Assembly (NCBI RefSeq): GCF_001083805.1
Contig: NZ_JXSK01000004.1
Span: 434,001-498,000 of the forward strand
Direction: 5' to 3'
Length of the DNA stretch: 64,000 nt
From: Photorhabdus luminescens subsp. luminescens
GTDB lineage: Bacteria > Pseudomonadota > Gammaproteobacteria > Enterobacterales > Enterobacteriaceae
Below, piece after piece: positions 7,372 to 53,758 of this stretch (position 1 is its first letter; every line of letters begins with the position of its first letter). Both the position numbers and the translations under genes were made by a program. The notes beneath the pieces are model-generated. The model did not search any database, had not been told where the DNA came from, and was given only the letters and a program-made list of their open reading frames with translations.

Positions 7372-7440
7372 TGCTAATAACATTTTGATATTAAACACGA
7401 TAAATCCGCTATTGCGGAACCTACATATGATGGGAAAAGT

Positions 7441-9739: not shown

Positions 9740-10550
9740 CAGAGTCCACCAAGGGCATTTTGCCCGTAAACGTTTCGGGCAGAACTTCTTAACCGATCAA
9801 TTTGTCATTGATAGTATTGTTTCCGCTATCAATCCACAACCCGGCCAGGCCGTATTGGAAATTGGCCCCGGTCTTGGTGCATTGACAGAACCGGTCGGAG
9901 AGCGAATGGATAAAATGACCGTCGTTGAACTCGACCGCGATTTAGCCGCTCGTCTACAAATTCATCCACAATTAAAAGATAAACTTACCATTATCCAACA
10001 AGATGCCATGACGGTTAATTTTAGCGAATTGTCTCAGCAAAGAGGGGAGCCGCTGCGCGTCTTTGGTAATTTACCTTATAATATTTCCACGCCGTTAATG
10101 TTCCACCTTTTCAGCTATACTGATGCTATTGCTGATATGCATTTCATGTTGCAAAAAGAGGTGGTGAACCGTCTGGTAGCTGGCCCCGGAAGTAAAGCTT
10201 TCGGGCGTTTGAGTGTCATGGCCCAATATTATTGTCAGGTTATCCCTGTGCTGGAAGTACCGCCAACTGCGTTTACTCCCGCACCTAAAGTCGATTCAGC
10301 CGTTGTACGTCTGATACCGCACAAAAGCATACCTCACCCCGTCAAAAATATTCGTATGCTGAGCCGGATCACGACTCAAGCTTTCAACCAACGGCGTAAA
10401 ACCATCCGTAACAGCCTCGGTGATCTTTTTACTGTAGAACAGCTAACAGAACTTGGTATCGATCCAAGTACTCGTGCAGAGAATATTTCTGTTGAGCAGT
10501 ACTGTAAAATGGCAAACTGGCTATCAAAACAACCTGAAATGCAGTCATAA
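9732..10550 (+). CDS. rsmA: 16S rRNA dimethyladenosine transferase RsmA (KsgA)
   Basis: SAM-dependent enzyme that dimethylates A1518 and A1519 of 16S rRNA late in 30S assembly. The frame has 272 residues. The SAM-binding motif [13 protein letters not shown] is near residues 42-54 and the catalytic NLPYNIST motif follows at about 113-120. FGQNFLTD at the N-terminus is a family hallmark. It overlaps pdxA by eight bases and is followed by apaG after 12 bases, with an AGGAG in the gap. Confidence 0.97.
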
Positions 10551-10562
10551 CAGGAGTCAATT

Positions 10563-10940
10563 ATGATTAATACGCCCAGGGTTTCTATTCAGGTACAAAG
10601 TGTTTACGTAGAAAGCCAATCGTGTCCCGATCAACAGCGTTTCGTTTTTGCCTATACAATCACTATCCGAAATCTTGGGCGCGAACCGGTCCAGTTAATT
10701 AATCGTTACTGGCTGATTACCAACAGTGATGGCCATCAAACGGAAGTTCAGGGGGAAGGCGTTGTTGGTGAGCAACCCATAATCCAGCCAGGGACCGAAT
10801 ACCGTTACACCAGCGGCGCAATATTGGAAACACCTTTGGGTACTATGCAAGGCCATTATGAAATGGTCGATCACAATGGTGAGCCATTTCGCGTTGCCAT
10901 ACCGGTTTTCCGCCTAGCTATCCCAACGCTGATTAATTGA
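10563..10940 (+). CDS. apaG: ApaG domain protein
   Basis: Small 125-residue beta-sandwich protein of the ApaG/DUF525 family, usually co-transcribed with apaH and rsmA. Its exact role is unclear. The diagnostic stretches are [18 protein letters not shown] and the GEGVVGEQP loop. The start is backed by CAGGAG about seven bases upstream. The stop is two bases before the ATG of apaH, so translation is probably coupled. Confidence 0.95.
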
Positions 10941-10942
10941 TT

Positions 10943-11758
10943 ATGTCTACATATCTCATTGGTGATATTCATGGCTGCTATCGTGAATTACGTGCTTTAT
11001 TAACTACAGTCGATTTTGATCCTAAAAAGGACACGTTGTGGTTAACGGGAGATTTGGTTGCCCGCGGCCCGGATTCTCTTAAAGTTCTCCGGTATGTTAA
11101 ACAGTTAGGCTCAGCCGCAAAAGTGGTATTAGGCAATCACGATCTCCATTTATTGGGCGTTTATGCCGGGATCAGCCGTAATAAACCTAAAGATAAAATT
11201 GATACGTTATTGTCTGCGCCAGATGCCGATGAATTAATTAATTGGTTACGCAAACAACCGTTACTACAGTGCGATGATGATCTAAAGCTGCTCATAACAC
11301 ATGCCGGCATTACGCCTCAATGGGATTTAGAAACAGCCAAAATGTGCGCCAGCGAAGTTGAAACCATGCTCAACAGTAGCAGTTACCCCCTATTTCTCAA
11401 TTCCATGTATGGGGATATGCCAAACAACTGGTCACCAGAACTCTCTGGACTGGCGCGTTTACGTTTCAGTACCAATACATTGACACGTATGCGTTACTGT
11501 TTTCCAAATGGTCAATTGGACATGTTGTGCAAAGATAAACCCGAAAACGCCCCTGCGCCACTAAAGCCTTGGTTTGAACTGCCACGCCAGATCTCATCAG
11601 AATATGCCATCGTTTTCGGTCACTGGGCATCATTAGAAGGCCAAGGAACGCCCGATGGATTTTATGCATTGGATACAGGGTGTTGTTGGGGAGGACAACT
11701 AACAATGCTACGTTGGGAAGATAAACAGTACTTCACACAATCGTCATTACCGCAGTAA
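10943..11758 (+). CDS. apaH: symmetrical bis(5'-nucleosyl)-tetraphosphatase ApaH
   Basis: Hydrolyses diadenosine tetraphosphate (Ap4A) to ADP and also removes Np4 caps from RNA in E. coli. It is a metallophosphatase with the motifs [20 protein letters not shown] and GNHDLH visible in order, and later HAG and FGHWA histidine motifs. I chose the ATG at 10943 (MSTYLIGD) instead of an in-frame TTG two codons earlier, because the family begins exactly with M-x-TYLIGD. The product is 271 residues. It is the last gene of the surA operon; a convergent hairpin separates it from folA. Confidence 0.96.
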
Positions 11759-11775
11759 AACAGCATTAAAGCCAG

Positions 11776-11805
11776 ACACGCCGTGAAAAAAGCTCATCGG
11801 CGTGT
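11776..11805. terminator. convergent hairpin between apaH and folA
   Basis: An 8-bp perfect stem, ACACGCCG (11776-11783) with CGGCGTGT (11798-11805), around a 14-base A-rich loop. It lies between the convergent stops of apaH and folA, so it can serve both. There is no long T-run on the plus strand, so the call rests on position and stem strength. Confidence 0.6.
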
Positions 11806-11814
11806 TCTATCAAA

Positions 11815-12300
11815 TTAGAAGCGACGTTGTAAAATCTCAAAACAGTAGCTGTGAGAATTTAGTTCATCGGCATCATGGTATTCAGTAAATTCAGAATCCC
11901 ACTCATCCGGTTCATAGTCAGGAAAATGCGTATCACCTATCACTTCTGCATCGATGTGCGTCAGGTACATACGGCTCGCTCGTGAAATAAATTGGTCATA
12001 AACTTTACCGCCGCCCATGACCATAACTTCTTCTGCATCACCCGCCACAGCCAGTGCTTCATCAACTGAGCTGACCCAGGTTACACGTTCATCATTACCC
12101 GGCTGATTACTCAATACAATATTGAGCCTCCCCGGTAATGGGCGACCTATGGCTTCATAAGTCACTCGCCCCATAATAACGGGTTTATTCAATGTATTAC
12201 GTTTAAACCAGGCCAAATCCCCCGGCAGATTCCACGGCATTTTATTCTCCATGCCGATAACCCGATCCATAGCTAAAGCAGCGATCAAGCTGATATTCAT
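11815..12300 (-). CDS. folA: dihydrofolate reductase FolA
   Basis: Reduces dihydrofolate to tetrahydrofolate with NADPH and is the target of trimethoprim. The 161 residues match the chromosomal enzyme (E. coli 159). The N-terminus [21 protein letters not shown] contains the catalytic-loop Trp. [15 protein letters not shown] and [10 protein letters not shown] are the NADPH-binding motifs, and the active-site acid is in the first helix (DLAWFKRNT). It is convergent with apaH as in E. coli. Right of folA the ancestral order breaks, and accessory DNA begins. Confidence 0.97.
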
Positions 12301-12478
12301 TAAGTCACCTTATAGGCAAATAGTATAAAAATTGATGACACTATACGGAAAGGGATGTACCCAGTCGATAGGCTCAACGCTTTCTTAAGTACAAAAGATT
12401 AATTTATACTTGCTTTATTACTTAAGACATTTATTGATCAAAATAATAACAAAGCTAATATTAACTATAGGGTACATT

Positions 12479-13093
12479 ATGCTGGAAACATCACTAGTCG
12501 TCATCACTATCTCAACGTTGGGTATGCTCTCTCCCGGTCCTGATTTCTTTCTGGTAGTCAAAAATGCCATACGTTACCAACGCTCTGCCGCCATGATGAC
12601 AGTAGTGGGCTTAATCGCCGCTATCACTTGCCATATGGCTTATTGCGTCGCCGGGTTGGCTATTGTTATCACCACAACACCGTGGCTATTTAATCTGATG
12701 AAATATGCCGGAGCGGCTTATCTTATTTGGATTGGGATCAATAGCCTGCTTTCACGCGGTGGAAACACTCTCACTTTCGATGATCAACCACGCCAAATTG
12801 TTACTTTCAAAAAAGCGTTTATGCAGGGGTTCTTATGTAATTTGCTCAATCCCAAAGCAACGTTGTTCTTTCTGGCAATATTTACTCAAGTGCTAAACGT
12901 CAATTCTGGTGTTGGTGAGAAATTATGGTATGCCTCTATTATCTGGGGATTGTCGGTCATCTATTGGCCGCTATTAGTCATATTGATCCAGAGTGCTCCA
13001 GTACGCCGCGGATTAGCTAAAACTCAGAAAATTATCGATAAACTACTAGGCATTATTTTGATTGGCTTAGGTGTCAAAGTGGCGCTGGGATAA
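12479..13093 (+). CDS. LysE/RhtB-family amino-acid exporter
   Basis: Membrane exporter of the LysE/RhtB superfamily, whose members expel amino acids such as homoserine, threonine, leucine or lysine; the substrate here is unknown. The diagnostic N-terminal motif SPGPDFFLVVKNA is present, followed by about six hydrophobic segments and the conserved LLNPKATLFFL motif in the middle. I chose the ATG at 12479 (MLETSLVVIT), giving 204 residues, rather than an upstream in-frame ATG at 12410 whose 23-residue extension is not typical of the family. It sits at the left edge of the accessory block between folA and carB. Confidence 0.85.
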   Translation: MLETSLVVITISTLGMLSPGPDFFLVVKNAIRYQRSAAMMTVVGLIAAITCHMAYCVAGLAIVITTTPWLFNLMKYAGAAYLIWIGINSLLSRGGNTLTFDDQPRQIVTFKKAFMQGFLCNLLNPKATLFFLAIFTQVLNVNSGVGEKLWYASIIWGLSVIYWPLLVILIQSAPVRRGLAKTQKIIDKLLGIILIGLGVKVALG

Positions 13094-13480: not shown

Positions 13481-13726
13481 TTAATATAATAGATTCCCCA
13501 TTATCAGGATTAAAAAACCGATCATTGATCACATTTCGTACTATTCATTCTGACAGTCAATTAATTTCACATTAGAATAGTTTAATGATGTCACTATTAA
13601 ATCATCAATATTCTCTGTGGGTAGATGATCATTTTATCACCGAAGCCTGACCACAGATAATTAGGTCACTTATTGGTCAGCGCCGCTGACGTTTTTACAC
13701 TTAAATTAAACAAAAGGGAAAGTACG

Positions 13727-16700
13727 ATGAGTAAACTCATCAACTCCGTGGCGAGAGGCACGAGTTATCTTTTAATTTACCTGACGGCAATCCAGCCGCT
13801 ACACCCGGCGATTGCCGCGGGAATCACACCGGATAATAACCAGACTCAGGTAAAAAATCAGGGCAATGTCCCGGTGGTGAATATTGCTACGCCGAATGAC
13901 GCGGGGATATCTCACAACACCTATAAAGAGTTCAATGTCGCCACTCAAGGCGCCGTACTGAATAACGCCACTCAAACGGCTAAATCACAACTGGCAGGAC
14001 AACTTAACGCTAACCCTAACCTGCATGGCAAAGCAGCGGAACTGATTATTAATGAAGTGACCGGCAGCGGACGATCTAATCTGCAAGGCCAGTTGGAGAT
14101 TTTCGGCAATAAAGCCAATGTGATGATTGCCAACCCTAATGGCATTACTTGTGATGGCTGTGGTTTTATTAATACTTCGAGTGCAACGCTGACCACGGGT
14201 AAACCCCAATTTGATAAACAGGGCGCGTTGGAAGCATTGGAAGTTAAAAAAGGCCAAATCACCATTGGCGGCAAAGGGTTAGATGGCAAGGCGACAGATT
14301 ATGTCGATATTATCAGCCGGGCGACTGAACTGAATGGAAAAATTCAGGCGAATAACCTGTCTCTGACGCAAGGCGCTAACCGAATCAGCTTAAAAGACGG
14401 CACAGTTAAACCTGTCGCTGGCGAGGGTGCTAAACCACAATTAGCCATTGACACCAAAGCGTTAGGCGGCATGTACGCCAATAAAATCCGACTGGTTGCC
14501 ACTGAAGATGGCGTTGGCGTGAATTTAAAAGAGTTAACCAGTCACCAGCGTGATATTACTTTAAACGCCAATGGCAAAATTGAACTGGGAAATATCACAG
14601 CTAAAACGGACCTGAATATTGTTGGTAAAGAAACCCATATTGCGCCAAATATTAAAGTGCAAGCGGGACGGGATATTACTCTGGAAAATACCACGCTAGA
14701 GAATAAAGGCAGTGTAACCGCAGGTCGCGATATGCGGATCTTTGGCGACACTGTGCGAAATACAGGCGACAAAGCTTTGCTACAAGCCAATGATAATATG
14801 TGGATACAGAAAGATGCTCAGGGGAATAAAGGTAAATTAGTCGAGAATAGATCTGCGACGATAAAAACCGTGAAGGGGGATTTGGTCGTCAGGACAAAGG
14901 AATTGAATAATACTCGCAATATCTTTGTCATGCAAAATAAGCAAGCCACGCCAGATTTCACAGATAGAGATATGACTATCTTTAGTGATATCAGTATTTT
15001 TGGCTCACCCTATACGATAACAGCAGAGTTGACTCCCCTTCCTGACAAATGGTTTGGGCATGCCTATTTTAGTGGTATTGGCCTTGAAGAGGATGGGACA
15101 GGAAAAGCTTATTTAAATAATAGCAGGATTAACAGTATTGTATTAAACAATTCTCAGCCCGGTCTTATCTTCTCTGGAAAAAACGCTTACATTAACAGTA
15201 ATAATGTGTCCAATCAAATCAGTCAGATTAAGGCTGAAAAAGATATTTTCCTGTCTGGAAATAGGTTTATTAATGAAAGCAAAAGAAAAAGTTCACTCAA
15301 TAATTTTATTATTTATGATCTTAAACTTGAGCCCGCGCCAACGGTATATACTTATAAAAAATCAGGAGAAACCAAAATCTGGAATGATGAGGACAATGTC
15401 ATTGAGCCAGCAAGCGTCATCGCGAAAGGTAGCATTGTTGCTGATTTCAAAGACAGTATTAATATTAATACCGCACTTCCTTATGACATTAAAACGGTCT
15501 CAGAAGTTAATATTAAAGAACGGCCAGCAACATTATCAGCAGAAAATATTATTCTCCATGCCGGTCAAATTAATATTACTGATAAAATAAAGGCAATTAA
15601 TGCATTAGATATTATATCTGAAAAAGATATTAATCTTAATGATGCCTCACTGCTGTCATCAAATAATTTATCTATGACAGCCATCAATAATATTCATTCT
15701 CTGCAAAGTGAGATAAAAGGAAAAAATATTACTCTTATCAGCCGAAATGGAGATATACGATTCCAGAGCAGTGAAAAAACCGGTTATTTTAATGCAGACA
15801 ATACCCGCAGAATGAATACATTAGAGGCTCATGGTAATTTAACAATCAACGCCGGTAAAAATCTACTTTTACAAAATACATATTTAACGCCAAGTACTCA
15901 TATCTCTCTGACAGCAAATAATGATATTGAAATAGAAAACAATGGACTGCTATTCTCACGACAAACGGGTCCTATGCATCCAGACCAATGGGATAAAAAT
16001 CTACTTAATGCTATTTTGCCTGAACAAGAGAAAGCAAGTTTTAAGCCTCTATTACCCATGACCGGCGTTTTAACTGCCTCAGAGTCATTGATGATTAAGG
16101 CTGGTGGTAATCTTTTCACTCAAGGGGCTTTCATCTCAGCCGGAAAAGATGTTTATTTAAGTGCGGCAAAGCATATTGCGCTCAATTCTCGTGAACTGAT
16201 TTTTCATAGACTAGAAGAGCTTTTCTTATCGGGTAATTATGTCCCACCTTTACGTTCAATAGAATTAGGTAGCAGAATCACGGCAAAAAATAATATCAGC
16301 ATAATGAGTGGTGGAGATATTAACGGGAAAGCCATTCAGATACAGGCCAACGGAAACACATTATTATCCGCAGGCAGAAATATCACATTACCTTTCCTGA
16401 CTTATGTTTATTCCCCAATTCAATATCGCAATGATAACGACAAAGAGAATCTCCATTTCATGGCTCAAATCCGGGGCGATAAAAAACTGACAATAGCGGC
16501 AAATGGCGCTATCACCACAGCGGGTTCTAAATTGACTTCGGGTGGTGATGTCATACTTTCCTCCGGTGGCAATATGCGCTTAGAATCAGTGCAAAATCAC
16601 ACTTATCGGGAAAACGGCAGTGAATCCACCGAATCAGTGACTCAGAACGGCACTGAATTGACCAGCGGCGGCATACTGACGGTTATTTCAAACGGCAGCA

Positions 16701-18922
16701 TTCTATTCCAGGCCACCAAACTCGCGTCCAAAGGGGCAATGGATATCGCGGCGAAAGGCGGTTATCTCTACGCTCAGGCGATGGAAGAATCCAGCCGCTA
16801 TGAAAAAACAGAAACCAAACGCAGGTGGTACGGCAAAAAGAAAACCACCACACGCACTCGTCATGATGTTACGAACAAAGTCACCGAATTTACCGCTGGC
16901 GGCGATATCAATCTGTTAAGCCGGGATGACAGCACCTATGAAGCCAGTAAAATCGCCGCCAATAAAAATGCCAAACTGACCAGTACTCACGGTAAAGTCA
17001 ATTTCAAAGCGGTCAAAAACAGTACCTTTGAACAGACGATTACCCATTCCAAAGGCTTTTATATCAAGCAGACCGATAAAGGCTATACCGAAAACAAATG
17101 GGTGCTCCCTGCTATTCATATCGGCGGAAAATTCACCGTAGAGGCGGCCAAAGGAGTTAGCGCGGATATCAAAGCCCAACATGGTCAAGCGCTACAAAAT
17201 GCAGTATCAATATTCGGCAATACGCCGGAAACCGCCTGGCTGAAAGGACTCAATGAACGTAAAGACGTTCAATGGAATTTAGTCAAAGATGCCTATGACA
17301 GTTGGGATTATAAAAGTCAGCATCTAAATCCGGTGGTCTCTGCGGTCATCGCGATTGCAGTCGCCGCTGCGACAGCGGGAGCCGGATTAACGGTTTCCGT
17401 TGCCGGATCAGCCGCCAGTACCGCGGGTTCAGCCGCCACGGCAGCGGGCGCTACTGCCAGCACTGCCGCCGCCATGAGTTCAGTCGCTTACGGCGCGACC
17501 GCTTCCGGCATGGCCGCTCTCGCTTCTCAGGCAGCAGTAGCGTTGGTGGATAATCAAGGTGACTTATCCAAAACCTTAAAAGTAATGGGAAGCAGCGATA
17601 CGGTTAAATCAACTGTCACTTCAATGGCAATTGGCGGCGCACTGGCGGGTTTTGATAACGTGATGGGATGGGATAAAGCCGCCAATGGCACACAAATTGA
17701 CCCGGCAAAAGCGACACTACCTAAACTGAGCAATAGGGACTGGAGCAAAGTGGCTCAACGGATCGCAGGTCAATCCCTTATCAGTTCCAGCCTGGGTACA
17801 GCCATCAATGGCGGGAGTTTTAAGGACAATTTTACCACCGCATTACTGGCTAATATTGGCAGCCAGATTAACGCCGAGGGTGCCGGGTTGATTGGCAAGA
17901 ATGGTCAGGTGTTAGGTTTACCCGGAAAAGCCATCAGCCACGCGGCGGTTTCTGCCCTTGCGGCGGAAATTGGCGGCGGTGATGCCAAAGGGGCGGCTGC
18001 CGGGGCATTAGCGGCAGAATTGGCCGCGATAACATTGGATAAAACATTCAATGATCCAATGAAAATTCAGGCGGGCGGCAAAATCATTGGCAGCGTTGCA
18101 GGCGCCATTGCGACCAATAGCGCCAAAGGCGCTAACAGTGGGGCCAATGCCGGAGAAATGGTTATTCTCTTTAACCACCTGAACTCCATGAATGCCTACA
18201 ATCTGGCGAGAGAGCTCCAGGAAGCTAATAAGCAAGGAACGCCTACCGAAACAATCTGGAACAAATACAACAAACTGAGCGCTGCGCAACGGGCAGAAAT
18301 GTTGTCTACCTGTGCCGGGAACGGTGGGTTATGTACATTGACCTATCAGGCTGAAATGGACGGTGGGATAAAAACAGCAGATGCTATTAGTGGCTTAAGA
18401 TGGATGTTTAACTTATCGGCTGAGGATGCTCATCGTATCAGCCAGTTTGTGACGACAGAAAACCAGAACGATTTAGGGCTGTTATATAACTCACTGCCTG
18501 CCTGGGAAAAAGGTGCACTAATAGCCAAAGAAGCGGTAGAATCTGCCGGTATTGGTGGTGCTATCGGCGGTAAAGCTTCCGTTGCTTCAATTGTTAGGAA
18601 GAATAAACAACCTTATCAACCGAATCAGGGTGCTGTTGGTAATATGGGAGAATTTTTTAAGCAACAGGGATTTGGGAGTCAGATTAAAAACGGTACACTT
18701 AAAACCAGCAAACGATATCAGGGGCAGAGTATTTATCAAGCTAAAACCAAAATGGGTGACAATATTAGTAAAGGTGACCAAATATATTTAGACGGGTCAC
18801 ACAAGAATCATTTAGAAGTATTTGATAGTAAAGATAAGTTCAAGTTCGTTCTTAACTTGGATGGGACTATAAACGATGATAAAACTCGTGCAGGAAAGGG
18901 AAGGAGGCTAAAAGTTGACTAG
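13727..18922 (+). CDS. CdiA/TpsA-like filamentous exoprotein with C-terminal toxin
   Basis: Large secreted hemagglutinin-repeat protein of the two-partner secretion type; such proteins carry toxins to neighbouring cells. The start at 13727 (MSKLINSVARG) is chosen over an upstream in-frame ATG because AGGGAAAG precedes it and the extended signal peptide then begins correctly; the product is 1731 residues. The TPS secretion domain (about 35-290) shows NPNLHG and NPNGITCDGC. Beta-helical hemagglutinin repeats follow, then a DUF637-like segment near 1150-1210, an Ala/Gly-rich stretch, and a pre-toxin region from about 1500. The last 90 or so residues form a compact basic domain with GDQIYLDGSHKNHLEVFD and a terminal RAGKGRRLKVD, reminiscent of colicin E3-type ribonucleases (inference). 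It is short for CdiA proteins, and no CdiB-type transporter is in the window. The immunity gene overlaps its end by eight bases. Confidence 0.9.
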   Translation: MSKLINSVARGTSYLLIYLTAIQPLHPAIAAGITPDNNQTQVKNQGNVPVVNIATPNDAGISHNTYKEFNVATQGAVLNNATQTAKSQLAGQLNANPNLHGKAAELIINEVTGSGRSNLQGQLEIFGNKANVMIANPNGITCDGCGFINTSSATLTTGKPQFDKQGALEALEVKKGQITIGGKGLDGKATDYVDIISRATELNGKIQANNLSLTQGANRISLKDGTVKPVAGEGAKPQLAIDTKALGGMYANKIRLVATEDGVGVNLKELTSHQRDITLNANGKIELGNITAKTDLNIVGKETHIAPNIKVQAGRDITLENTTLENKGSVTAGRDMRIFGDTVRNTGDKALLQANDNMWIQKDAQGNKGKLVENRSATIKTVKGDLVVRTKELNNTRNIFVMQNKQATPDFTDRDMTIFSDISIFGSPYTITAELTPLPDKWFGHAYFSGIGLEEDGTGKAYLNNSRINSIVLNNSQPGLIFSGKNAYINSNNVSNQISQIKAEKDIFLSGNRFINESKRKSSLNNFIIYDLKLEPAPTVYTYKKSGETKIWNDEDNVIEPASVIAKGSIVADFKDSININTALPYDIKTVSEVNIKERPATLSAENIILHAGQINITDKIKAINALDIISEKDINLNDASLLSSNNLSMTAINNIHSLQSEIKGKNITLISRNGDIRFQSSEKTGYFNADNTRRMNTLEAHGNLTINAGKNLLLQNTYLTPSTHISLTANNDIEIENNGLLFSRQTGPMHPDQWDKNLLNAILPEQEKASFKPLLPMTGVLTASESLMIKAGGNLFTQGAFISAGKDVYLSAAKHIALNSRELIFHRLEELFLSGNYVPPLRSIELGSRITAKNNISIMSGGDINGKAIQIQANGNTLLSAGRNITLPFLTYVYSPIQYRNDNDKENLHFMAQIRGDKKLTIAANGAITTAGSKLTSGGDVILSSGGNMRLESVQNHTYRENGSESTESVTQNGTELTSGGILTVISNGSILFQATKLASKGAMDIAAKGGYLYAQAMEESSRYEKTETKRRWYGKKKTTTRTRHDVTNKVTEFTAGGDINLLSRDDSTYEASKIAANKNAKLTSTHGKVNFKAVKNSTFEQTITHSKGFYIKQTDKGYTENKWVLPAIHIGGKFTVEAAKGVSADIKAQHGQALQNAVSIFGNTPETAWLKGLNERKDVQWNLVKDAYDSWDYKSQHLNPVVSAVIAIAVAAATAGAGLTVSVAGSAASTAGSAATAAGATASTAAAMSSVAYGATASGMAALASQAAVALVDNQGDLSKTLKVMGSSDTVKSTVTSMAIGGALAGFDNVMGWDKAANGTQIDPAKATLPKLSNRDWSKVAQRIAGQSLISSSLGTAINGGSFKDNFTTALLANIGSQINAEGAGLIGKNGQVLGLPGKAISHAAVSALAAEIGGGDAKGAAAGALAAELAAITLDKTFNDPMKIQAGGKIIGSVAGAIATNSAKGANSGANAGEMVILFNHLNSMNAYNLARELQEANKQGTPTETIWNKYNKLSAAQRAEMLSTCAGNGGLCTLTYQAEMDGGIKTADAISGLRWMFNLSAEDAHRISQFVTTENQNDLGLLYNSLPAWEKGALIAKEAVESAGIGGAIGGKASVASIVRKNKQPYQPNQGAVGNMGEFFKQQGFGSQIKNGTLKTSKRYQGQSIYQAKTKMGDNISKGDQIYLDGSHKNHLEVFDSKDKFKFVLNLDGTINDDKTRAGKGRRLKVD

Positions 18923-20175: not shown

Positions 20176-20210
20176 CCGAAAGCCCACATCACGTGGGCTT
20201 TCGGCCTTTT
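20176..20210 (+). terminator. strong terminator after immunity gene 2
   Basis: Perfect 12-bp stem CCGAAAGCCCAC (20176-20187) and GTGGGCTTTCGG (20193-20204), loop ATCAC, followed by CCTTTT. It is a typical intrinsic terminator placed 20 bases after the immunity 2 stop codon. Confidence 0.8.
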
Positions 20211-20253
20211 ACCAATAATCACCAGATGTGCGTAAACAAGCTAGTAATACACC

Positions 20254-20955
20254 AAGAAGCCAATAAGCAAGGAACGCCTACCGAAGCAATCTGGAACAAA
20301 TACAACAAACTGAGCGCTGCGCAACGGGCAGAAATGTTGTCTACCTGTGCCGGGAACGGTGGGTTATGTACATTGACCTATCAAGCTGAAATGGACGGTG
20401 GGATAAAAACAGCGGATGCGATTAGTGGCTTAAGATGGATGTTTAACTTATCGGCTGAAGATGCCCATCGCATCAGCCAGTTTGTGACGACAGAAAATCA
20501 GAACGATTTAGGGCTGTTGTATAACTCGCTGCCTGCCTGGGAAAAAGGTGCATTAATAGCCAAAGAAGCGGTAGAATCTGCCGGTATTGGCGGTGCTATC
20601 AGCGGTAAAGCTTCGGTTACTTCGATTGTTGGGAAGAATAAACAGCCTTATCAGCCGAATAAAGGTGCTGTTAGTAATATAGGAGAGTTTTTTAAACAGC
20701 CAAGATTTGGGACCAGATTAAAGACGGCACACTTAAAACCAGCAAACGATATTAGGGCAGAGTATTTATCAAGCTCAGGGTAAACTGGGTGATATAATCA
20801 AGAAAGACAATCAAATGTATCTGGATGGTGCGCATAAAAATCATCTTGAACTTTTTGATAGTAAAAATAATTTTAAAGCAACCCTTAATTTAGATAGTCC
20901 AGTAAATGTGGATAAGACCAAAGCTGGTCAAGGGAGGAAACTTAAAATTGACTGA
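20254..20955 (+). pseudogene. orphan toxin module 3, broken by two single-base deletions
   Basis: A long duplicate of the exoprotein 3' end, nearly identical to 18219-18922 over the pre-toxin part (EANKQGTPTE through SIVGKNKQPYQPN). Compared with the main gene, one base is missing near 20712-20714 (GGGACCAG against GGGAGTCAG) and another in a G-run near 20755 (TTAGGGC against TCAGGGGC). The remaining toxin can be read in the restored frame as MYLDGAHKNHLELFD, NLDS and GRKLKID to the TGA at 20953-20955. An upstream ATG at 20193 adds only unrelated residues. The toxin is therefore probably not made from this copy as it stands, though it could be repaired by recombination. Confidence 0.8.
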
Positions 20956-36331: not shown

Positions 36332-36826
36332 ATGGCAATACCTGTTTATCTTTGGCTAAAAGATGATGGCGGTTCAGACATCAAAGGTTCTGTCGATGTT
36401 ACAGGCCGAGAAGGTAGCATTGAAGTTACTGGATTCAATCATGATGTATATATACCTACTGATGACAATACAGGAAAACTGACGGGTACTCGTATACACG
36501 GTACATTTTGTTTTGATAAAGAAGTGGACTCATCTTCACCTTATATCTATAAGGCTTTGAGTACAGGGCAAACCCTTAAAGAAGCCAAATTTAAATCTTA
36601 CCGAATTAATGACGCCGGGCAGGAAATTGAGTATTTCATTACCCAGCTTGAAAATGTGAAAGTTGTAGCCGTAGTTCCTCTGATGCATGACATTAAATCA
36701 GCTCACGGCAAACGGCATAACTCCCTTGAATATATCGAATTACGTTATGAAAAAATAACTTGGACCTACAAAGATGGCAACATTACCCATTCAGATAGCT
36801 GGAATGAACGAGTAACAACTTATTAA
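36332..36826 (+). CDS. type VI secretion tube protein Hcp
   Basis: Hcp-family protein whose hexameric rings form the inner tube of the type VI secretion system and carry cargo effectors. The frame has 164 residues, typical length. It starts MAIPVYLWLKDDGG and has the characteristic ITG/EVTGFNHDVYIP and GTRIHGTFCFDKEVDSSSPYIYKAL regions, and LEYIELRYEKITW near the end. No other type VI structural genes are nearby, so this is an orphan hcp that must work with a main cluster elsewhere. The next gene starts 12 bases after the stop. Confidence 0.92.
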   Translation: MAIPVYLWLKDDGGSDIKGSVDVTGREGSIEVTGFNHDVYIPTDDNTGKLTGTRIHGTFCFDKEVDSSSPYIYKALSTGQTLKEAKFKSYRINDAGQEIEYFITQLENVKVVAVVPLMHDIKSAHGKRHNSLEYIELRYEKITWTYKDGNITHSDSWNERVTTY

Positions 36827-36838
36827 AGAGTACTAAAT

Positions 36839-37201
36839 ATGGCTTGGACATATCATCAAAGCACTGGCGAAATGTACCACAATGGTGAATTGGTTGAGAC
36901 TGGCTATTCTGGCCGAATGACGAACAAAAACAACCCTGACAGGCAACAGGTGAAAGGATTAGGCCCAATCCCACGGGGCAAATATCGCATTGATAGTTTC
37001 AATTCATCAAAAGGACCAATGACAATAGTATTAAAACCTGACTCATCTAACGAGATGTTTGGCCGTGATGCGTTCAGAATCCACGGAGAACGAATACATG
37101 GTCCTAGAGGTTGGGCCTCCGAAGGATGCATTATACTAGGTCCAAATACTAGATGGAGTATTATTCGCTCAGGAGATAGGGATCTAGAGGTAGTTAAATG
37201 A
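36839..37201 (+). CDS. Tlde1-like type VI effector (L,D-transpeptidase fold)
   Basis: A 120-residue protein resembling the DUF2778/Tlde1 family: type VI effectors that attack peptidoglycan in the target periplasm by L,D-carboxypeptidase and D-amino-acid exchange activity. Visible features are WTYHQSTGEMYHNGE at the start, GLGPIPRGKYRI at 40-51, and the catalytic-type cluster RIHGERIHG (His82, His87) followed by WASEGCIILG with Cys97. There is no signal peptide, as expected for a cargo loaded into Hcp. It is sandwiched between hcp and a secreted probable immunity protein, with a four-base ATGA overlap to the latter. The family call is from motifs, not a search. Confidence 0.82.
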   Translation: MAWTYHQSTGEMYHNGELVETGYSGRMTNKNNPDRQQVKGLGPIPRGKYRIDSFNSSKGPMTIVLKPDSSNEMFGRDAFRIHGERIHGPRGWASEGCIILGPNTRWSIIRSGDRDLEVVK

Positions 37202-37710
37202 AAATTTTGCTACTATTGACTCTATTCCCATTTTTCTCTAATGCAACAATAACGCCACCGTTATTGTTGAAATCAGTAAATGAAATCGGGGTACATAAAG
37301 CTATCCTAGAAATAAGTAAAGAAGATTGGAAAAACAGTGTTATAAACGGTATATCATCAGGTGACTCTTCATGGCTAAGTCTAGTACCACTATTAGCCGT
37401 AGGAGCTGGCCCAAAATATGCAGCTATGCTAGAAGATTCATTATCTAATGCTTTGACAACAAACACAAAAGAAACACTACATATCCTAAACATAATTGAT
37501 AGAAACCAATATCCTTATATGATTGGCTCAGACATTGTATGCACATTACCTTTTGATCAATCAAAAAATGCCATTTACAATTATTACCAACGGACTCATG
37601 CAGCTCTTAAAAAGATCACACCAGAAGGAGATAAATGTTTATCTATTTTAGACTCAACAATGGATGAATTTAAAAATAATAAAACAAAAATATACCATGA
37701 ATATCCTTAA
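37198..37710 (+). CDS. probable periplasmic immunity protein for the Tlde1-like effector
   Basis: A 170-residue protein with an N-terminal signal peptide (hydrophobic KILLLLTLFPFFSNA, probably cleaved near residue 16) and two cysteines (115 and 147) that could pair in the periplasm. Export to the periplasm is where a peptidoglycan-attacking effector must be neutralised. The start overlaps the effector stop by four bases. The base composition is more AT-rich than the backbone. I do not recognise the family by name; the function is inferred from export and position. Confidence 0.7.
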   Translation: MKILLLLTLFPFFSNATITPPLLLKSVNEIGVHKAILEISKEDWKNSVINGISSGDSSWLSLVPLLAVGAGPKYAAMLEDSLSNALTTNTKETLHILNIIDRNQYPYMIGSDIVCTLPFDQSKNAIYNYYQRTHAALKKITPEGDKCLSILDSTMDEFKNNKTKIYHEYP

Positions 37711-47200: not shown

Positions 47201-48154
47201 TTACAACAGATCAGCGATCATCTTCTCAAGTTTGCCCTGATCAATAGCAAATTTACGGATACCATCCGCCAGTTTTTCTGTCGCCATTGCATCCTGATGA
47301 TGTTCCCAGTAGAACTGAGCTTCATTCAATGGCTCTGGATGCGCTTTAATTTCACCGGAATAACCCAGTTTACGTTCAACTTCACCCTGAGCTTCAGACA
47401 ACTCTTTCAACAGCGCAGGGGCAATAGTCAAACGGTCACAACCTGCCAATTCCAAAATCTCACCAGCATTACGGAAGCTTGCTCCCATAACCACAGTGTT
47501 ATAGCCGTGTTGTTTATAGTATTGGTAGATTTCAGTCACAGAAATGACGCCGGGATCTTCGTGTGGAGCGAACTCTTTCTGATCACTGTTCGCTTTATGC
47601 CAGTCAAGAATACGGCCAACGAATGGCGAAATCAGATAAACCCCGGCTTCCGCACAAGCACGCGCCTGAGCAAAGGAGAACAGTAGTGTCAGGTTACAGT
47701 TAATACCTTCTTTTTCTAACTGTTCAGCCGCGCGGATACCCTGCCAGGTTGAAGCCAATTTAATCAGAATCCGATCATTGCTGATACCTGCCTCGTTATA
47801 CAACTTAATCAGGCGTTTAGCTTTAGCAACACTGCGTTCGGTGTCATAAGACAAACGGGCATCAACTTCTGTCGAAATACGGCCAGGGATCAATTTGAGA
47901 ATTTCCAAGCCAATATTTACCGCCAGTTTATCACTCGCATCCATAATCTGCTGCTCGTGGGAATCGCTCTGTTCACGCGCCCACGCAATTGCTTCATCAA
48001 TTAATTTACGGTATTCAGGAATCTGTGCGGCGTTAAGGATCAGAGATGGGTTAGTTGTCGCATCTTGTGGCTGATAAAGTTTCATCGCCGCAATATCCCC
48101 GGTATCTGCCACGACTGTTGTCAGTTTACGCAGGGAGGTTAGTTTATCGGTCAT
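47201..48154 (-). CDS. talB: transaldolase
   Basis: Pentose-phosphate pathway enzyme moving a dihydroxyacetone unit between sugar phosphates. The ATG at 48154 ([20 protein letters not shown]) gives 317 residues, identical in length to E. coli TalB; a frame extending to 48268 would add 38 unrelated residues. The Schiff-base lysine lies in [13 protein letters not shown] (about residue 132). Confidence 0.97.
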
Positions 48155-48517
48155 TTTGTCATATCTCATCGTTATGCGTGAAATTGTGGCATGGTTTCTG
48201 AGCCATCCGTTGATGATAACACGGTAGGTCCTTGCTGCAAGGCGGTAAAAACGATCACTCACTCGCAACCGTTTTCGATTCCGTATCTGTCACCAATCTT
48301 AGTAAATCTTAAGGCAAATCCTAATATATCCGTTATCTTTCAAGTTGCCTCTTTGTTGGCTGCACTCACTCACCCCAGTCACATAGTTATCTATGCTCCC
48401 GGGGATTCGTTCCCTTGCCGTCGCGATGCATCTTGAAATCCATAGGGTATATAATAATACTTGCTGATCCTATTTCGGTCAGCCAATTCAACATAATTTA
48501 AATTGCAACCAACCTTT
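48155..48517. other. talB upstream region and left border of the AT-rich island
   Basis: About 360 bases with no gene. The first 170 should hold the talB promoter. Positions 48325-48453 are an ERIC repeat. After it the base composition drops sharply to AT-rich island DNA. Confidence 0.7.
48325..48453. repeat. ERIC element (enterobacterial repetitive intergenic consensus)
   Basis: About 129 bases with inverted ends (TATATCC at 48325, GGGTATATA at 48453) and the diagnostic core CTCACCCCAGTCAC and CTCCCGGGGATTC, separated by the ATAGTTATCTAT centre. Length and core match the ERIC/IRU family of imperfect palindromes. Confidence 0.9.
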
Positions 48518-51025
48518 TTATACCACCTCGCTAATGTCCAATCTTGAACCAATAGTTTCCATATGTGAGACAACGATTATTTTCTTATTTTTATCAATTC
48601 TATTTATTAATTTCCTGCAATCAAACTCATCAAATATAATCACATCTGAATTGGAATTGTTGAGATAATCTAAAAATCTATCGTTTGCTAAATAGGAATC
48701 AAAATTATGATCTATATATATGTATCCTTTTATTTCAGATAATCTCTTAAGAAGAAAGGTTTTACCACTACCATTATTTCCCACTAATTGTATAATTCTA
48801 TCTTTTTCCAAGTTTTGTTCTAAAATTGATAAATTAGAAGATAAATTTATTTTTTTATAATAAGCATTGTAGTGTTCAGTTATTCTTTTAATAGATACAG
48901 TTTCTGACAAATATCCAAATATGGCGAAGTAAAAAATGACTATTCTACTATCTAAGTTTATAGCCGCCGTAATGTTATCTGATTCGAAACTGGGATATAA
49001 AGAATAAAAGATCATTAAGCTAGATATTATAAGACCTAATATAGAAGCCAAAGAATTAATTAAATATCGCTGCGATGCTATGGTATACAAACTATGTATT
49101 CCAGATAGAATAGTATCTCGGCAAAAACGATTAGCCAGACGACATTGAGGTAACTTATTAAGATAAGAAAAGAGAATTGATAAATTATGCAACTCTTTAT
49201 AATGCTTATTTCTATTATGCCTGTACACAGGATACAATAAATAAACGCTAGTGAGCAATACAAATATAGCTCCAAACATAATCATAAAATTGTCAGAATT
49301 AAGGAATAAAAGTACAGTTCCGACAAATATCGAACCAAACCAAAAAACATCCTTAGCATACATGGTAAATCTATTTATTATTACATTATATTCATGCTTA
49401 AATAAATTGAAGCCTTCGATCCTAAAGTTGCTTTTAATAGAACTATATATGTCTTGTCTTGCTTTTTTTCTTATCTTAAGCTCTATTAAATATGATCCTA
49501 CAATCAATGAAATCATACCTAATAGAGATATAAATATTATTTTATAGGTTTCACTACCATATTCACTATATGTAATTGCTCCCAACTCGAATAATGAAAA
49601 ACTAGCAATGAACAAGAGTATAATCCCAATTACAGAATTATAACTAAAAACATATAGCAACTGAGAAACTCTTGATTTATTAATTTTATAATCTTCTTCT
49701 AATATAACACCACTATTTGACGTCGATTTTAGGGGTTTATTTTTTATATCCAGTTCAATATTCTTAAGCTCATGAGGAAATGATAATATAACATCAATTT
49801 GATACTCTTCCCTTAGTCTTGATATTATACTGTCTAAATCAAGCAATAAATTAGAATCCCACCCAGTCCTATTTACGTCAAAATAAATATGGCCTTTATA
49901 ATTATCAAGTATAGCCATATATACATTCCTTACAGCAAAAATAAGATTCAATTGTCCTCTTGACAGATCGCTAATACTTGAATTCATATCAATATATTTA
50001 TTAATCTGAAAAATTTCATAACTTAATTTATTTAATATTCCTCTATTAATTAGCTCTTTTGATAAATATATATTCCCCAGAATAGTTTTCTCAATAAAAC
50101 CCTGTTTACCATCTAAATCATAATATTCCTCTGGCTTGCATCGATAATTTTTATATCTCCTAATAATTGACAATTTAGCTAAATAACCATCATAAAATGG
50201 CGTTAGTAATCTAACTAAACCAAGATATTCACTAACCAAAATTAGAGAATATAAAAGAATTAGCATTTTATCACTATTATATATTTCCTTGCCAATTAGA
50301 ATGAGAAAAAGAACAGGAATCACTTTTAAAAATGCATTTGATGAAATATCTACAGCTCTCCACAGTGAATCAGTACGCTTTACTTTTTCTTCAATATTAA
50401 TAATTCTATTCAAGTTTGAAAATTTCCCTCCTTGGTATCCAGTTAACAATATAGCAGTCAGAGACTCTAAATTATCTCCAATAAATCCATATCTCCGTTT
50501 CCTTATCTTTGCTAATTTCTTAGAGAAATATATTCGCTTTTTAAATAGAAAAAAGGATAATAGTATTAATATAGGACACAAAGATAATAAGCCAACTGTT
50601 CCGCCCTCAACATTAATGACCATTAGAATGGACAGATAAATGAAGCAGATTACCTTAGATATCATCAAAACCACACTAGTATCATACGTGGAGTAATTTA
50701 CAATATCATGCTCATTCTGCTGAGCATCTTTTTTACTGGTGAAACAGCTATCAAATATTGAGAGAATATAAGCCTGTTTTTTAGTGATGAGAAATAGACT
50801 TAGATTATTAATCACACTCAAGATAGGTCTTAATATTATAATTAAGAAGATAATCACGCCAACACTACCTGCCTCTAAACCCTCAGTCAAAGGCAGTGTT
50901 ATTATATAAATCAGTATGAAAAATGAAAAGAAAGAAGATAATAAATTAATTATTACCTCAATAGGAAATAGAATTAATGTACTATATTGCTTTGTTAAAT
51001 TGTCCTTAATTGCAGAAATGTTCAT
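48518..51025 (-). CDS. fused ABC exporter-like protein with two half nucleotide-binding domains
   Basis: An 835-residue membrane protein, family name not recognised, with the layout TM block (about 15-290), reduced NBD (305-425), TM block (about 455-705), reduced NBD (742-835). The first NBD has no Walker A but keeps an ABC signature (SDLSRGQ, 352-358), a Walker-B-like HIYFD (379-383) followed by Val in place of catalytic Glu, and a D-loop-like GWDSN. The second has Walker A GNNGSGKT (749-756), Walker B VIIFDEFD with Glu800, and H-loop VVSH (818-821), but only about 40 residues separate Walker A and B, so the signature helical subdomain is missing. The halves could build one composite ATP site. 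Preceded by AAGGTGG and, 22 bases upstream, a 44-codon peptide gene. Very AT-rich. Likely an exporter or a protection protein; the substrate is unknown. Confidence 0.8.
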   Translation of the reverse strand: MNISAIKDNLTKQYSTLILFPIEVIINLLSSFFSFFILIYIITLPLTEGLEAGSVGVIIFLIIILRPILSVINNLSLFLITKKQAYILSIFDSCFTSKKDAQQNEHDIVNYSTYDTSVVLMISKVICFIYLSILMVINVEGGTVGLLSLCPILILLSFFLFKKRIYFSKKLAKIRKRRYGFIGDNLESLTAILLTGYQGGKFSNLNRIINIEEKVKRTDSLWRAVDISSNAFLKVIPVLFLILIGKEIYNSDKMLILLYSLILVSEYLGLVRLLTPFYDGYLAKLSIIRRYKNYRCKPEEYYDLDGKQGFIEKTILGNIYLSKELINRGILNKLSYEIFQINKYIDMNSSISDLSRGQLNLIFAVRNVYMAILDNYKGHIYFDVNRTGWDSNLLLDLDSIISRLREEYQIDVILSFPHELKNIELDIKNKPLKSTSNSGVILEEDYKINKSRVSQLLYVFSYNSVIGIILLFIASFSLFELGAITYSEYGSETYKIIFISLLGMISLIVGSYLIELKIRKKARQDIYSSIKSNFRIEGFNLFKHEYNVIINRFTMYAKDVFWFGSIFVGTVLLFLNSDNFMIMFGAIFVLLTSVYLLYPVYRHNRNKHYKELHNLSILFSYLNKLPQCRLANRFCRDTILSGIHSLYTIASQRYLINSLASILGLIISSLMIFYSLYPSFESDNITAAINLDSRIVIFYFAIFGYLSETVSIKRITEHYNAYYKKINLSSNLSILEQNLEKDRIIQLVGNNGSGKTFLLKRLSEIKGYIYIDHNFDSYLANDRFLDYLNNSNSDVIIFDEFDCRKLINRIDKNKKIIVVSHMETIGSRLDISEVV

Positions 51026-51047
51026 TTTCCACCTTATTTTTTAATAG

Positions 51048-51182
51048 CTAAATTAGGTCTTCTTTGCTCCCTGCATTACTTACAAAAATGATGTCAGGTC
51101 TTGAAAACTCACTCTTAAAATCTTTATCTTTTCTTACTTGTTTAAGTAATCTCATTAATTTAGCTTTTTCTTTATTACTCAA
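51048..51182 (-). CDS. 44-residue peptide gene upstream of the ABC gene
   Basis: A short frame from TTG (51182) to TAG (51048-51050), with AAGGAG six bases before the TTG; no ATG or GTG occurs earlier in the open stretch. The product is a lysine-rich, amphipathic N-terminal half (MSNKEKAKLMRLLKQVRK), then DKDFKSEFSRPD, a hydrophobic IIFVS and the tail NAGSKEDLI. There is no Cys, no GG leader site and no recognised family. It lies 22 bases before the ABC gene and behind a plausible own promoter (51236-51264). It may be the exported product, a RiPP-like precursor, or a small partner protein of the transporter. Function is inferred from position only. Confidence 0.6.
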   Translation of the reverse strand: MSNKEKAKLMRLLKQVRKDKDFKSEFSRPDIIFVSNAGSKEDLI

Positions 51183-51235
51183 TTTTTTCTCCTTTAATTG
51201 GAAATGTTTATTAGCTTGCTGGAATAAAAGCGAAT

Positions 51236-51264
51236 ATTTAAATCATTTCAATATTGTTGGTCAA
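51236..51264 (-). promoter_or_regulatory. candidate promoter of the peptide-ABC unit
   Basis: Minus strand TTGACC (51264-51259), 17-base spacer, TTAAAT (51241-51236). It lies in the 237-base gap between the MFS gene and the peptide gene, giving a leader of about 45 bases with the AAGGAG at its end. No other feature is seen in the gap. Confidence 0.45.
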
Positions 51265-51419
51265 TGATGATCTCTCAGATATGGGGTAAATGTCGCATAA
51301 ATTATGTTTTATATACTTACACCCAACCGCCGATTTTCCTGTATTGTAAACATCAGAAAAAACGAAGCCAAAGAACTCAGTAAATTGAAACTATTACCAA
51401 TAACTTTATACAAAATAAA

Positions 51420-52631
51420 TTACTTTAATGTTAGTTTATTCTCAACATCAGCACTTATTTTCTTTGCAACAAAAACTGAGCTCAAAGAACACATTGCAAA
51501 AAAGACAAATAAAATACTACTTCCTAGCAAAGGGATTAACCATATTATTATAATACCAAAGGCTGATTGGTAACTTCTTGAAATTGCATCCGAAGACGAT
51601 ATTATTCTCGCAAAATATTTTTCTGGCGTCAGCTCTTGCCCTGATGTATAGAGAGAGATTCTTAAAAAAGAAAGTCCGATAAAAATAAGCATGGTTCCCA
51701 GTGTATAGTATAACAGGACAATTTTTGATAAAGGCATAGCCCAAAGAATACTCCCAATCGCAATCAATAGAGAACCAAGGAAGAAAGATTTTTTTATTCT
51801 ACTTATAGTAAAATAGCGACCAGATAAATAAGACCCAAATAACATTGAAACAGAAGCTAAAAAGGAAAAATAAGCAATCAGATCAGAAAAAGAAAACGAA
51901 TATGACCCACTAAATAAAGAGGAAATTGTTATATAGTTAGAAGTCACTATATAGGTCGAAATCACTTGGTATGACACCATTGCAGTTAAAATACTTATCC
52001 TGAATAATAATATATTTCTCTGAGTATTATTCTTGATAATATATTCTAATCCACCATATTTCATAGAAATATCTTTTTCCTTTATTTTAGTTCCCCAATC
52101 GCTGATAAATAATAGAAATATAATTGATAAAATAAAACACATTGATTCAATAAAAAATAAGGGGCGTATTGAAATCATATTTATCAAAAAACCAGCTATC
52201 AATGGAGAAGATATAGAGAGCAATCCATAATAGAATTGTTGCTTTGATATAAAAGCCACTCTTTCTTCTGAGCTAACAAATGCCTGGTATGCTACTGACC
52301 TTATTGATATATTCAAACCTGAAAAAAATGATAGAAGAAAAGATATGAAAAACAATAAATATATATTATCGACAAATACAGCAAGAAATATTGTTACTGC
52401 CCGGAAGAAATCCGAAGAAATACAAATAGCCCGCATATTAAACCGAGCAGTTAGCCAACCAATAACCACAAAAACTAATATACTCGCTGTTAACCTTACA
52501 GATACCATTAAAGACGCATCTATCTCCGACTTGGTAATTGAATATACAAGTGAAAGAAGCGCTATTTCACTTATTCCTGTACCAAAGATAGATATTATAT
52601 CAGAGGATAATAGCCTGTTTTTATTTTCCAT
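51420..52631 (-). CDS. MFS-family transporter
   Basis: A 403-residue membrane protein with about 12 hydrophobic segments and the MFS_3/EntS-like style: SDIISIFGTGISEIALLSLVY in TM1, a basic loop after TM2 (GWLTARFNMRAI), and DAISRSYQSAFG late in the protein. Related exporters secrete siderophores, macrolides or peptides; the substrate here is unknown. It shares strand and AT-rich composition with the peptide and ABC genes downstream and is probably part of the same acquired island. ATAGGA lies immediately before the ATG. Confidence 0.8.
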   Translation of the reverse strand: MENKNRLLSSDIISIFGTGISEIALLSLVYSITKSEIDASLMVSVRLTASILVFVVIGWLTARFNMRAICISSDFFRAVTIFLAVFVDNIYLLFFISFLLSFFSGLNISIRSVAYQAFVSSEERVAFISKQQFYYGLLSISSPLIAGFLINMISIRPLFFIESMCFILSIIFLLFISDWGTKIKEKDISMKYGGLEYIIKNNTQRNILLFRISILTAMVSYQVISTYIVTSNYITISSLFSGSYSFSFSDLIAYFSFLASVSMLFGSYLSGRYFTISRIKKSFFLGSLLIAIGSILWAMPLSKIVLLYYTLGTMLIFIGLSFLRISLYTSGQELTPEKYFARIISSSDAISRSYQSAFGIIIIWLIPLLGSSILFVFFAMCSLSSVFVAKKISADVENKLTLK

Positions 52632-52981
52632 ATCCTATCCCGCTTATATTTTATTTATCCAATCGATTTCAATCAAATGATAAATTGGAAATATAGTATA
52701 GCCGTTTACTTTTAGAATAATTACTATATTACAATTCAAAAAAATCGATCAAACGCACAAAATCTGACATTTAAATAATCAATCAAAACTTAATTTAAAT
52801 TTATAAATTATTTAAATATTTTTAATATTAAAAGTAATATCGATCAATAAAATGGAGTGCAAAATTATCAGCTTGTTACCCGACAGATATCACGTACACA
52901 GTTTCCGCTATCGTCGTTATTAATTCTTTATTATCCTATCTTTTGTTAAAGTAACTTCATCTGAACAACCGGAACGATATT
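52632..52981. other. right border of the AT-rich island, yaaA upstream region
   Basis: About 350 bases, extremely AT-rich up to about 52860 and normal after that, so the island border is near 52860. It must hold the leftward promoter of the MFS gene and the yaaA promoter. The octamer ATCGATCA occurs twice (near 52743 and 52839). No gene or ERIC copy seen here. Confidence 0.5.
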
Positions 52982-53758
52982 ATGCTTATTACTATTTCAC
53001 CTGCAAAAACCCTTGATTATGAAAGCCCGCTTGCCACGGAAAAATATAGTCAGCCAGTATTACTCAACCAATCAGAGCAGTTAATCAGTATTTGTCGCGA
53101 ACTGGCACCCGCCCAAATTGCGAGTTTGATGGGTATCAGCGATAAACTTGCCGGCCTGAATGCAGCCCGTTTTGGCGAGTGGCATGCTGATTTCACTCCA
53201 GAAAATGCCCGTCAGGCTATCCTGGCATTTAAAGGTGATGTTTATACCGGTATGCAAGCTGAATCTTTCTCCGATAAGGATTTCGATTTTGCTCAGAATC
53301 ATCTGAGAATCTTATCTGGCCTTTACGGTGTACTCCGTCCGTTAGATTTGATGCAACCTTACCGGCTGGAAATGGGGATCAAACTGGAAAATAAACGCGG
53401 TAAAGATCTCTACGCTTTCTGGGGAGATCTGATCACAGAAAAGCTTAATGAGGCTCTGGAACAGCAAGGCGATAATATACTGGTTAATCTGGCTTCTGAT
53501 GAATATTTCAAATCCGTGAATACGAAAAAATTAGCCGGTAAAATCATTAAACCTGTATTCCTCGATGAGAAAAACGGTAAGTATAAAATCATTAGTTTTT
53601 ATGCGAAAAAAGCTCGTGGGCTAATGAGCCGGTTTATTATTCAGAATCAATTAACGCAAGCTGACCGTCTGGTGGAGTTTAATCTGGATGGCTACGCCTT
53701 TGATGAATCGTTATCCAAAGGGAACGAACTGGTATTTAAACGCCCAGAACAACATTAA
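52982..53758 (+). CDS. yaaA: peroxide stress protein YaaA
   Basis: DUF328 protein that lowers free iron and protects against hydrogen peroxide in E. coli (OxyR regulon). The frame has 258 residues, usual length. It starts [17 protein letters not shown] and has [38 protein letters not shown] and [11 protein letters not shown], the diagnostic blocks. It is convergent with thrC as in E. coli. Confidence 0.96.

Follow-up and report, generated by a model that had tools for sequence, protein, structure and literature searches.

An ABC exporter gene of Photorhabdus luminescens with two complementary half NBDs, predicted to form a single ATP site, and its apparent descent from a RiPP-like operon

The locus and the two halves of the exporter

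The window, by which we mean the whole stretch of 64,000 nucleotides of Photorhabdus luminescens subsp. luminescens that was analysed (contig NZ_JXSK01000004.1, positions 434,001 to 498,000), carries a gene for a two-block ABC exporter (Table 1), which shares an AT-rich island with an upstream MFS transporter gene (48518-52631, 28.8% GC versus 43.7% for the window outside 48001-53000). Judging by their protein sequences, the genes on either side of the island are probable homologues of yaaA and talB. The ABC gene is found in a matching neighbourhood in three named genomes, those of P. noenieputensis, P. caribbeanensis and P. akhurstii; in the genus genomes G004 and G006, the encoded protein is identical to that of P. 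noenieputensis and P. caribbeanensis, respectively. Elsewhere in the window, a large hemagglutinin-like ORF with TPS and DUF637 domains (Pfam; 13673-18922, forward strand) is followed by a second ORF (20193-20783, forward) in which a portion of the C-terminal region of the large one recurs, as judged by eye, and a gene of the Hcp family (T6SS_HCP) has a small neighbour (36332-36826 and 37198-37710, forward), for which a Pfam search at E 0.001 gives no match.

Table 1. Coordinates of the exporter gene, its parts and the related loci (window positions, unless a locus is named; residue numbers in brackets)
Feature	Position	Strand	Basis
ABC exporter gene, two transmembrane blocks and two half NBDs (835 residues)	48518..51025	-	ORF list
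Transmembrane block 1, six peaks (1-295)	50141..51025	-	hydropathy
Half NBD 1, without Walker A lobe (about 303-430)	49736..50119	-	
Q-loop-like Gln308 and TILGNI (308-319)	50069..50104	-	motif alignment
Signature LSRGQ (354-358)	49952..49966	-	motif alignment
Degenerate Walker B HIYFDV, Val for catalytic Glu (379-384)	49874..49891	-	
D-loop-like GWDS, Asp390 at Walker B Asp +7 (388-391)	49853..49864	-	
H-loop-like His418	49772..49774	-	
Transmembrane block 2, six peaks (446-725)	48851..49690	-	hydropathy
Half NBD 2, without helical subdomain, signature and D-loop (730-835)	48521..48838	-	
Walker A GNNGSGKT (749-756)	48758..48781	-	
Walker B VIIFDE, catalytic Glu800 (795-800)	48626..48643	-	
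H-loop His821, in VSH (819-821)	48563..48565	-	
44-codon ORF with TTG start, deletion scar	51048..51182	-	
MFS transporter gene, upstream in the same AT-rich island	51420..52631	-	
RiPP-like operon, L024	3196-9487		
RiPP-like operon, L013 (second locus of G007)	6119-12554		
ABC gene remnant with large internal deletion, L015	5161-5445		
ABC gene remnant with large internal deletion, L017	5580-5862		
ABC gene remnant with large internal deletion, L016	296-508		
Streptomyces/Kitasatospora plasmid regions, L026-L029	around 7200-11350		

The original prediction, of an 835-residue protein with two transmembrane blocks that are each followed by an incomplete NBD, agrees with what we find. The ORF has an ATG start and no internal stops and is intact over its entire length, and the hydropathy profile, with overlapping peaks merged by eye, resolves into six peaks for block 1 (approximately 24-42, 54-72, 119-137, 143-161, 227-245 and 255-273) and six for block 2 (approximately 466-484, 496-514, 557-577, 580-598, 655-673 and 685-703). 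By hydropathy, these are two blocks of six transmembrane helices, as in type IV (type I) ABC exporters, and the helix pattern is also present in the low-confidence full-length model discussed below. When compared by hhalign to 17 exporters of the same genome, blocks 1 and 2 show weak sequence homology (E of 0.056 and 0.12, respectively).

As to the motifs, half 1 had been described as possessing a signature, no Walker A, and Val where a catalytic Glu would be expected, and half 2 as possessing Walker A, Glu800 and His821, with neither signature nor helical subdomain, and both descriptions hold residue for residue. Half 1 comprises a Q-loop-like stretch, a short helical subdomain, the signature, a degenerate Walker B, a D-loop and an H-loop-like His. 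Its Asp390 fits the D-loop of the same-genome exporters, in which Asp occupies the Walker B +7 place in 15 of the 15 correctly registered sequences (17 were examined, with two rows, L032 and L038, dropped as placed on an earlier Asp), and Leu is found at this place in half 2. These 17 represent a set of 18, one having been left out for lack of a Walker A by the pattern used. In half 2 there is no clear Q-loop Gln, an invariant Asp772-His773 being found near the expected place, and no signature is seen between Walker A and Walker B, which are 50 residues apart; in the 17 exporters, Walker A and signature alone are separated by 94-105 residues. This short spacing, and the distance of 35 residues from the final peak of block 1 to Gln308, leave hardly any space in which another reading frame could encode a missing Walker A lobe.

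When two NBDs pair in an ABC protein, ATP bound at Walker A, Walker B and the H-loop of either one is contacted by the signature and the D-loop of its partner. Such composite ATP sites are described in a review (PMC7756269). By this logic, the putative trans-acting elements (signature, Asp390) are kept in half 1 and the putative cis-acting elements (Walker A, Glu800, His821) in half 2, and the motif count would leave one composite ATP site. As read from the sequence, this would be a consensus site of the type present in asymmetric exporters. The second site of such exporters, deviating but able to bind ATP, has no counterpart here, because half 1 is without Walker A and half 2 is without a signature.

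The two halves differ in how clearly they can be recognized as parts of NBDs. Half 2 scores 63.8 against a profile of the 17 exporter NBDs, with a maximum of 20.8 for 200 column shuffles, and half 1 scores 23.6 against the same profile, with 200 shuffles giving a mean of 13.6, a standard deviation of 2.5 and a maximum of 22.7. The half 1 alignment brings two elements into register, TIxxNI (KTILGNI in half 1, DTVANNI in the template) and LSxGQ (LSRGQ and LSGGQ, respectively). The hhalign E value is 0.0066, with an HH probability of just 6%, and the evidence for the homology of half 1 is therefore moderate. In Pfam, the Walker A half alone is matched, under the cut-offs, and a search with half 1 gives no match; a sequence search of solved structures with the ABC protein has its best E, 0.021, around Walker A. 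When half 1 is modelled alone (pLDDT 57.8), we read 43 of the 50 Foldseek rows listed as ABC-type ATPases (best E 0.1; for ranks 1 and 5 the ABC identity is presumed) and the remaining seven as non-ABC proteins. The model of the full-length protein, based on an alignment of six sequences (pLDDT 39.2, pTM 0.27), is too poor for the geometry of the signature and Walker A. Its first ten Foldseek rows are exporter-type ABC proteins (best E 0.018, TM below 0.2), and a second fold search lists ABC proteins, with an rmsd near 15 A in most of these rows, along with SMC heads, an AhlC protein and other long-helix proteins.

Relatives and a RiPP-like operon

Three other intact copies with the same layout are found, in P. 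noenieputensis (L012, 85% identity), at a second locus of the genus genome G007 (L013, 79%) and in a metagenome-assembled genome (MAG) of Enterobacteriaceae (L024, 64%). These are homologues sharing both deletions, for which a search had been proposed, and the complementary loss between the NBDs is genuine and common to relatives down to 64% identity. Private decay or a frameshift as the cause of the layout is ruled out by these three copies, and it is because L013 and L024, described below as operon copies, carry the layout too that the notion of a copy that has just decayed is refuted in this respect. Among the six copies compared, Walker A (GxNGSGKT), Glu800, His821 and Asp390 are kept in all, and the signature is complete in five, the P. 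akhurstii ORF stopping inside it. The half 1 Walker B is subject to drift at Asp383 and Val384, with Asn in the MAG copy and Thr in P. akhurstii. All six copies also keep two further half 1 residues, Gln308 and His418, even though these would serve the absent site. Pairwise comparison of the four intact copies (six pairs) gives dN/dS values of 0.17-0.33 for half 1 and 0.14-0.24 for half 2.

Broken copies are also apparent. Those of P. caribbeanensis and P. akhurstii are each in two pieces, with the break outside the NBDs in the former. Remnants are found in G001 and, near talB, in G007, both with the N-terminal part joined, in a nearly identical manner, to the last 68 residues or so, and in G009 the C-terminal part alone remains. 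These broken or remnant copies (P. caribbeanensis, P. akhurstii, G001, G009 and the talB locus of G007) show the orphan ABC gene, as we shall call it, to be dispensable. The ABC protein is matched in 6 of 58 relatives, all within the genus. Profiles of the protein (A1/A2) match 6 of 12 genus genomes, three of them with an intact copy, 4 of 392 family genomes, all of them in the genus and with G006 and G007 not among the matches, and 1 of 369 class genomes, which is the window's own; in the larger searches at most two candidates were scored per genome among the matches listed, making absence weak evidence. A scan of genome contigs gave four loci out of 39 pattern matches. No homologues with complete NBDs were found among the relatives or the genus, family and class genomes, and the ABC protein has no match in plasmids, phages or viral contigs. 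Nor, as judged by titles and abstract openings, is an exporter with complementary half NBDs described in any of the papers listed by literature searches.

At L024 and L013, the ABC gene is part of an operon, in the order of a 37-residue ORF ending in YHY, a gene for an MBL-fold protein with an HxHxDH motif, the half-NBD ABC gene, a P-loop gene and a gene for an HpaB-type monooxygenase (TIGR02310). The two 37-residue ORFs differ by a dN of 0.23 and a dS of 0.91, and in both operons a hairpin is present between the peptide gene and the MBL gene (-18.2 and -16.0 kcal/mol). Both copies possess the gene content that characterizes RiPP clusters: a short conserved precursor gene, putative modifying enzymes and an exporter. 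The P-loop gene (177 residues) comes immediately after the ABC gene in L024 and is interrupted by a repeat in G007; the best Pfam match and several NCBIfam matches of its product are to shikimate-kinase-like or other small kinases, and ABC models match it weakly. A repeat in the window (48321-48455) has 92% identity to the interrupting element and resembles further copies in L013 and L017; we take it to be ERIC-like. By eye, the ORFs that flank the L024 operon are tyrosine-recombinase-like and, in one case, primase-like, as if it were carried on an integrative element.

Outside of this group, the MBL-fold protein is matched in five records from Streptomyces/Kitasatospora plasmids, four of which align over 98% or more of its length (30.6-33.5% identity). 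The gene order is a transcriptional regulator, a small ORF of 41-50 residues, the MBL-fold protein and a protein that is APH-like by eye, and the small ORF ends in YHH or YHR in four of the four regions. These loci look like a related peptide pathway. That the plasmid MBL genes also have a small ORF upstream supports the small ORF as the putative substrate of the MBL enzyme. MBL profiles match none of 398 phylum genomes and none of 392 family genomes; in the genus, one of 12 genomes is matched, the positive control G007, and there is no match in the window's own genome. The MBL protein finds no match in phages and viral contigs, and the operon finds none in Escherichia coli genomes by megablast. 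A pathway of an MBL-fold enzyme and a Tyr-His peptide was not found described among the papers listed by literature searches, again by titles and abstract openings.

A deletion scar upstream of the exporter gene

Just upstream of its ABC gene, the window appears to carry a scar, with the leader of a RiPP-like precursor (homology at 51093-51229) running into the 3' end of an MBL-fold gene that has otherwise been lost (homology at 51040-51088). It matches the peptide gene region over 137 bp (75%, E 1.6e-23) and the end of the MBL gene over 49 bp, with 77.6% identity to L013 (E 1e-6) and 79.6% to L024 (E 2.5e-8). P. akhurstii (E 9.5e-7 and 2.2e-8) and P. caribbeanensis (E 0.002 and 3.8e-5) share this join. 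BLAST matches the peptide part alone in P. noenieputensis (84 bp, E 1.1e-17), and the alignment suggests a further deletion in this species. Since the scar joins the peptide gene to the MBL end, an MBL gene must formerly have been present at the window locus, and most simply it was deleted once, before the species split. The ABC gene would thus be an orphan of a deleted RiPP-like operon.

The divergence of the orphan is as expected from vertical descent, the dS between the window and P. noenieputensis (0.31) and between the window and the P. caribbeanensis piece (0.24) being like those of thrC (0.26 and 0.31). It has evolved under purifying selection, with a dN/dS of about 0.24-0.32 (0.24 pairwise between the window and P. 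noenieputensis, 0.32 and 0.27 as branch estimates); between the two operon copies the value is 0.16, at a saturated dS of 1.46, and for thrC it is 0.06-0.10. As dN/dS is far below 1, the orphan seems to have been useful for much of the time since the deletion, if P. noenieputensis shares it.

A possible one-site exporter and its comparison with known systems

The explanation that we favour as a whole, and consider fairly probable, is that of complementary half NBDs whose one ATP site drives export, in a protein with RiPP-like operon ancestry. The protein would be a full-length exporter in which the NBDs have been trimmed in a complementary fashion, half 1 keeping the parts that act across the dimer and half 2 those that hold and cut ATP. 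The halves would close on a single ATP, which half 2 would hold at its Walker A and half 1 would contact with its signature, and this one site would power export. What was originally exported may have been the C-terminal part, in modified form, of the 37-residue operon peptide, which ends in YHY. After the peptide gene became a scar and the MBL gene was lost, the orphan would be, if anything, a pump for immunity or efflux. On the stronger proposition, of a natural exporter that cycles on one ATP site, the other having been removed through loss of its cis half in one NBD and of its trans half in the other, a minimal engine evolved for one RiPP-like peptide and kept as an orphan pump once the biosynthetic genes had gone, we are evenly divided.

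A different view of the present state of the gene, which we find rather unlikely yet the most serious of the alternatives, is that no ATP-driven pumping takes place in the window's species today, the orphan heading toward loss and perhaps only binding ATP. It would account for the scar in place of the peptide gene and the lack of an MBL match in the same genome, for the broken and deleted copies in other Photorhabdus, and for branch dN/dS estimates that exceed both those of thrC and the value between the operon copies, where dS is saturated. However, the ORF is intact in both the window and P. noenieputensis, with dN/dS well below 1 and every catalytic residue kept, and this view leaves the identical layout in the operon copies unexplained.

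Less likely again is that the halves pack in cis as one whole NBD and that two chains dimerise, producing two composite sites and 24 helices. The halves do sum to about 234 residues, one NBD's worth, and the Q-loop Gln is found in half 1 only, but each half has its own Walker B-like strand and its own H-loop-like His, unlike a simple split, and the two full transmembrane blocks already make up one exporter. We regard as improbable that half 1 is a linker with a chance LSRGQ, half 2 alone being the ATPase, either in a dimer of chains or as a P-loop switch of a non-ABC type: half 1 indeed has no Pfam match, a modest profile score and a low HH probability, but this score exceeds those of all 200 shuffles, in register, the D-loop spacing fits, the Foldseek rows, if of weak E, are mostly ABC ATPases, and the segment is placed right after six helices. 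Very improbable is the supply of a Walker A to half 1 by another protein, such as the 177-residue P-loop protein, to make two sites, as while the P-loop gene adjoins the ABC gene on its 3' side in L024, its product is mainly shikimate-kinase-like or small-kinase-like and only weakly ABC, the gene is interrupted in G007, and no such ORF is found beside the ABC gene of the window.

With the one-site exporter as the preferred reading, three known systems can be compared. The plasmid loci of Streptomyces/Kitasatospora are like the operon in having an MBL gene with a small ORF upstream, and they differ in that no ABC gene is among the listed features (four regions, with an incomplete gene table) and that an APH-like protein of about 290-298 residues (by eye) follows. 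RiPP exporters such as McjD or those of the PCAT type likewise have the exporter gene beside a short peptide and putative modifying enzymes, as at L024 and L013, but unlike these, the window protein has no Pfam peptidase domain and its NBDs are incomplete. The operon copies point to a peptide pathway with an MBL-fold enzyme and a peptide ending in Tyr-His.

The closest comparison is with the asymmetric ABC exporters. TM287/288, TmrAB, BmrCD, TAP1/2 and the ABCC proteins likewise possess 6+6 helices, with one consensus and one non-consensus ATP site. To our knowledge, all known asymmetric exporters keep two complete NBD folds. By motif logic the window protein resembles them, but it lacks the two complete NBDs that also define a type IV exporter, half 1 having neither Walker A nor the catalytic Glu, and, unlike in exporters of the TM287/288 type, its second site is, by sequence, physically absent. 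In asymmetric exporters, the degenerate site arises from deviations in motif residues and has been suggested to hold ATP as a glue, and whether such a second site is needed, be it as a glue or as a scaffold, is considered unclear in the review cited above (PMC7756269). If our reading is true, an exporter whose second site is physically absent would be a direct natural test of whether two sites are needed, and it would show how small the ATPase core of an ABC protein can become.
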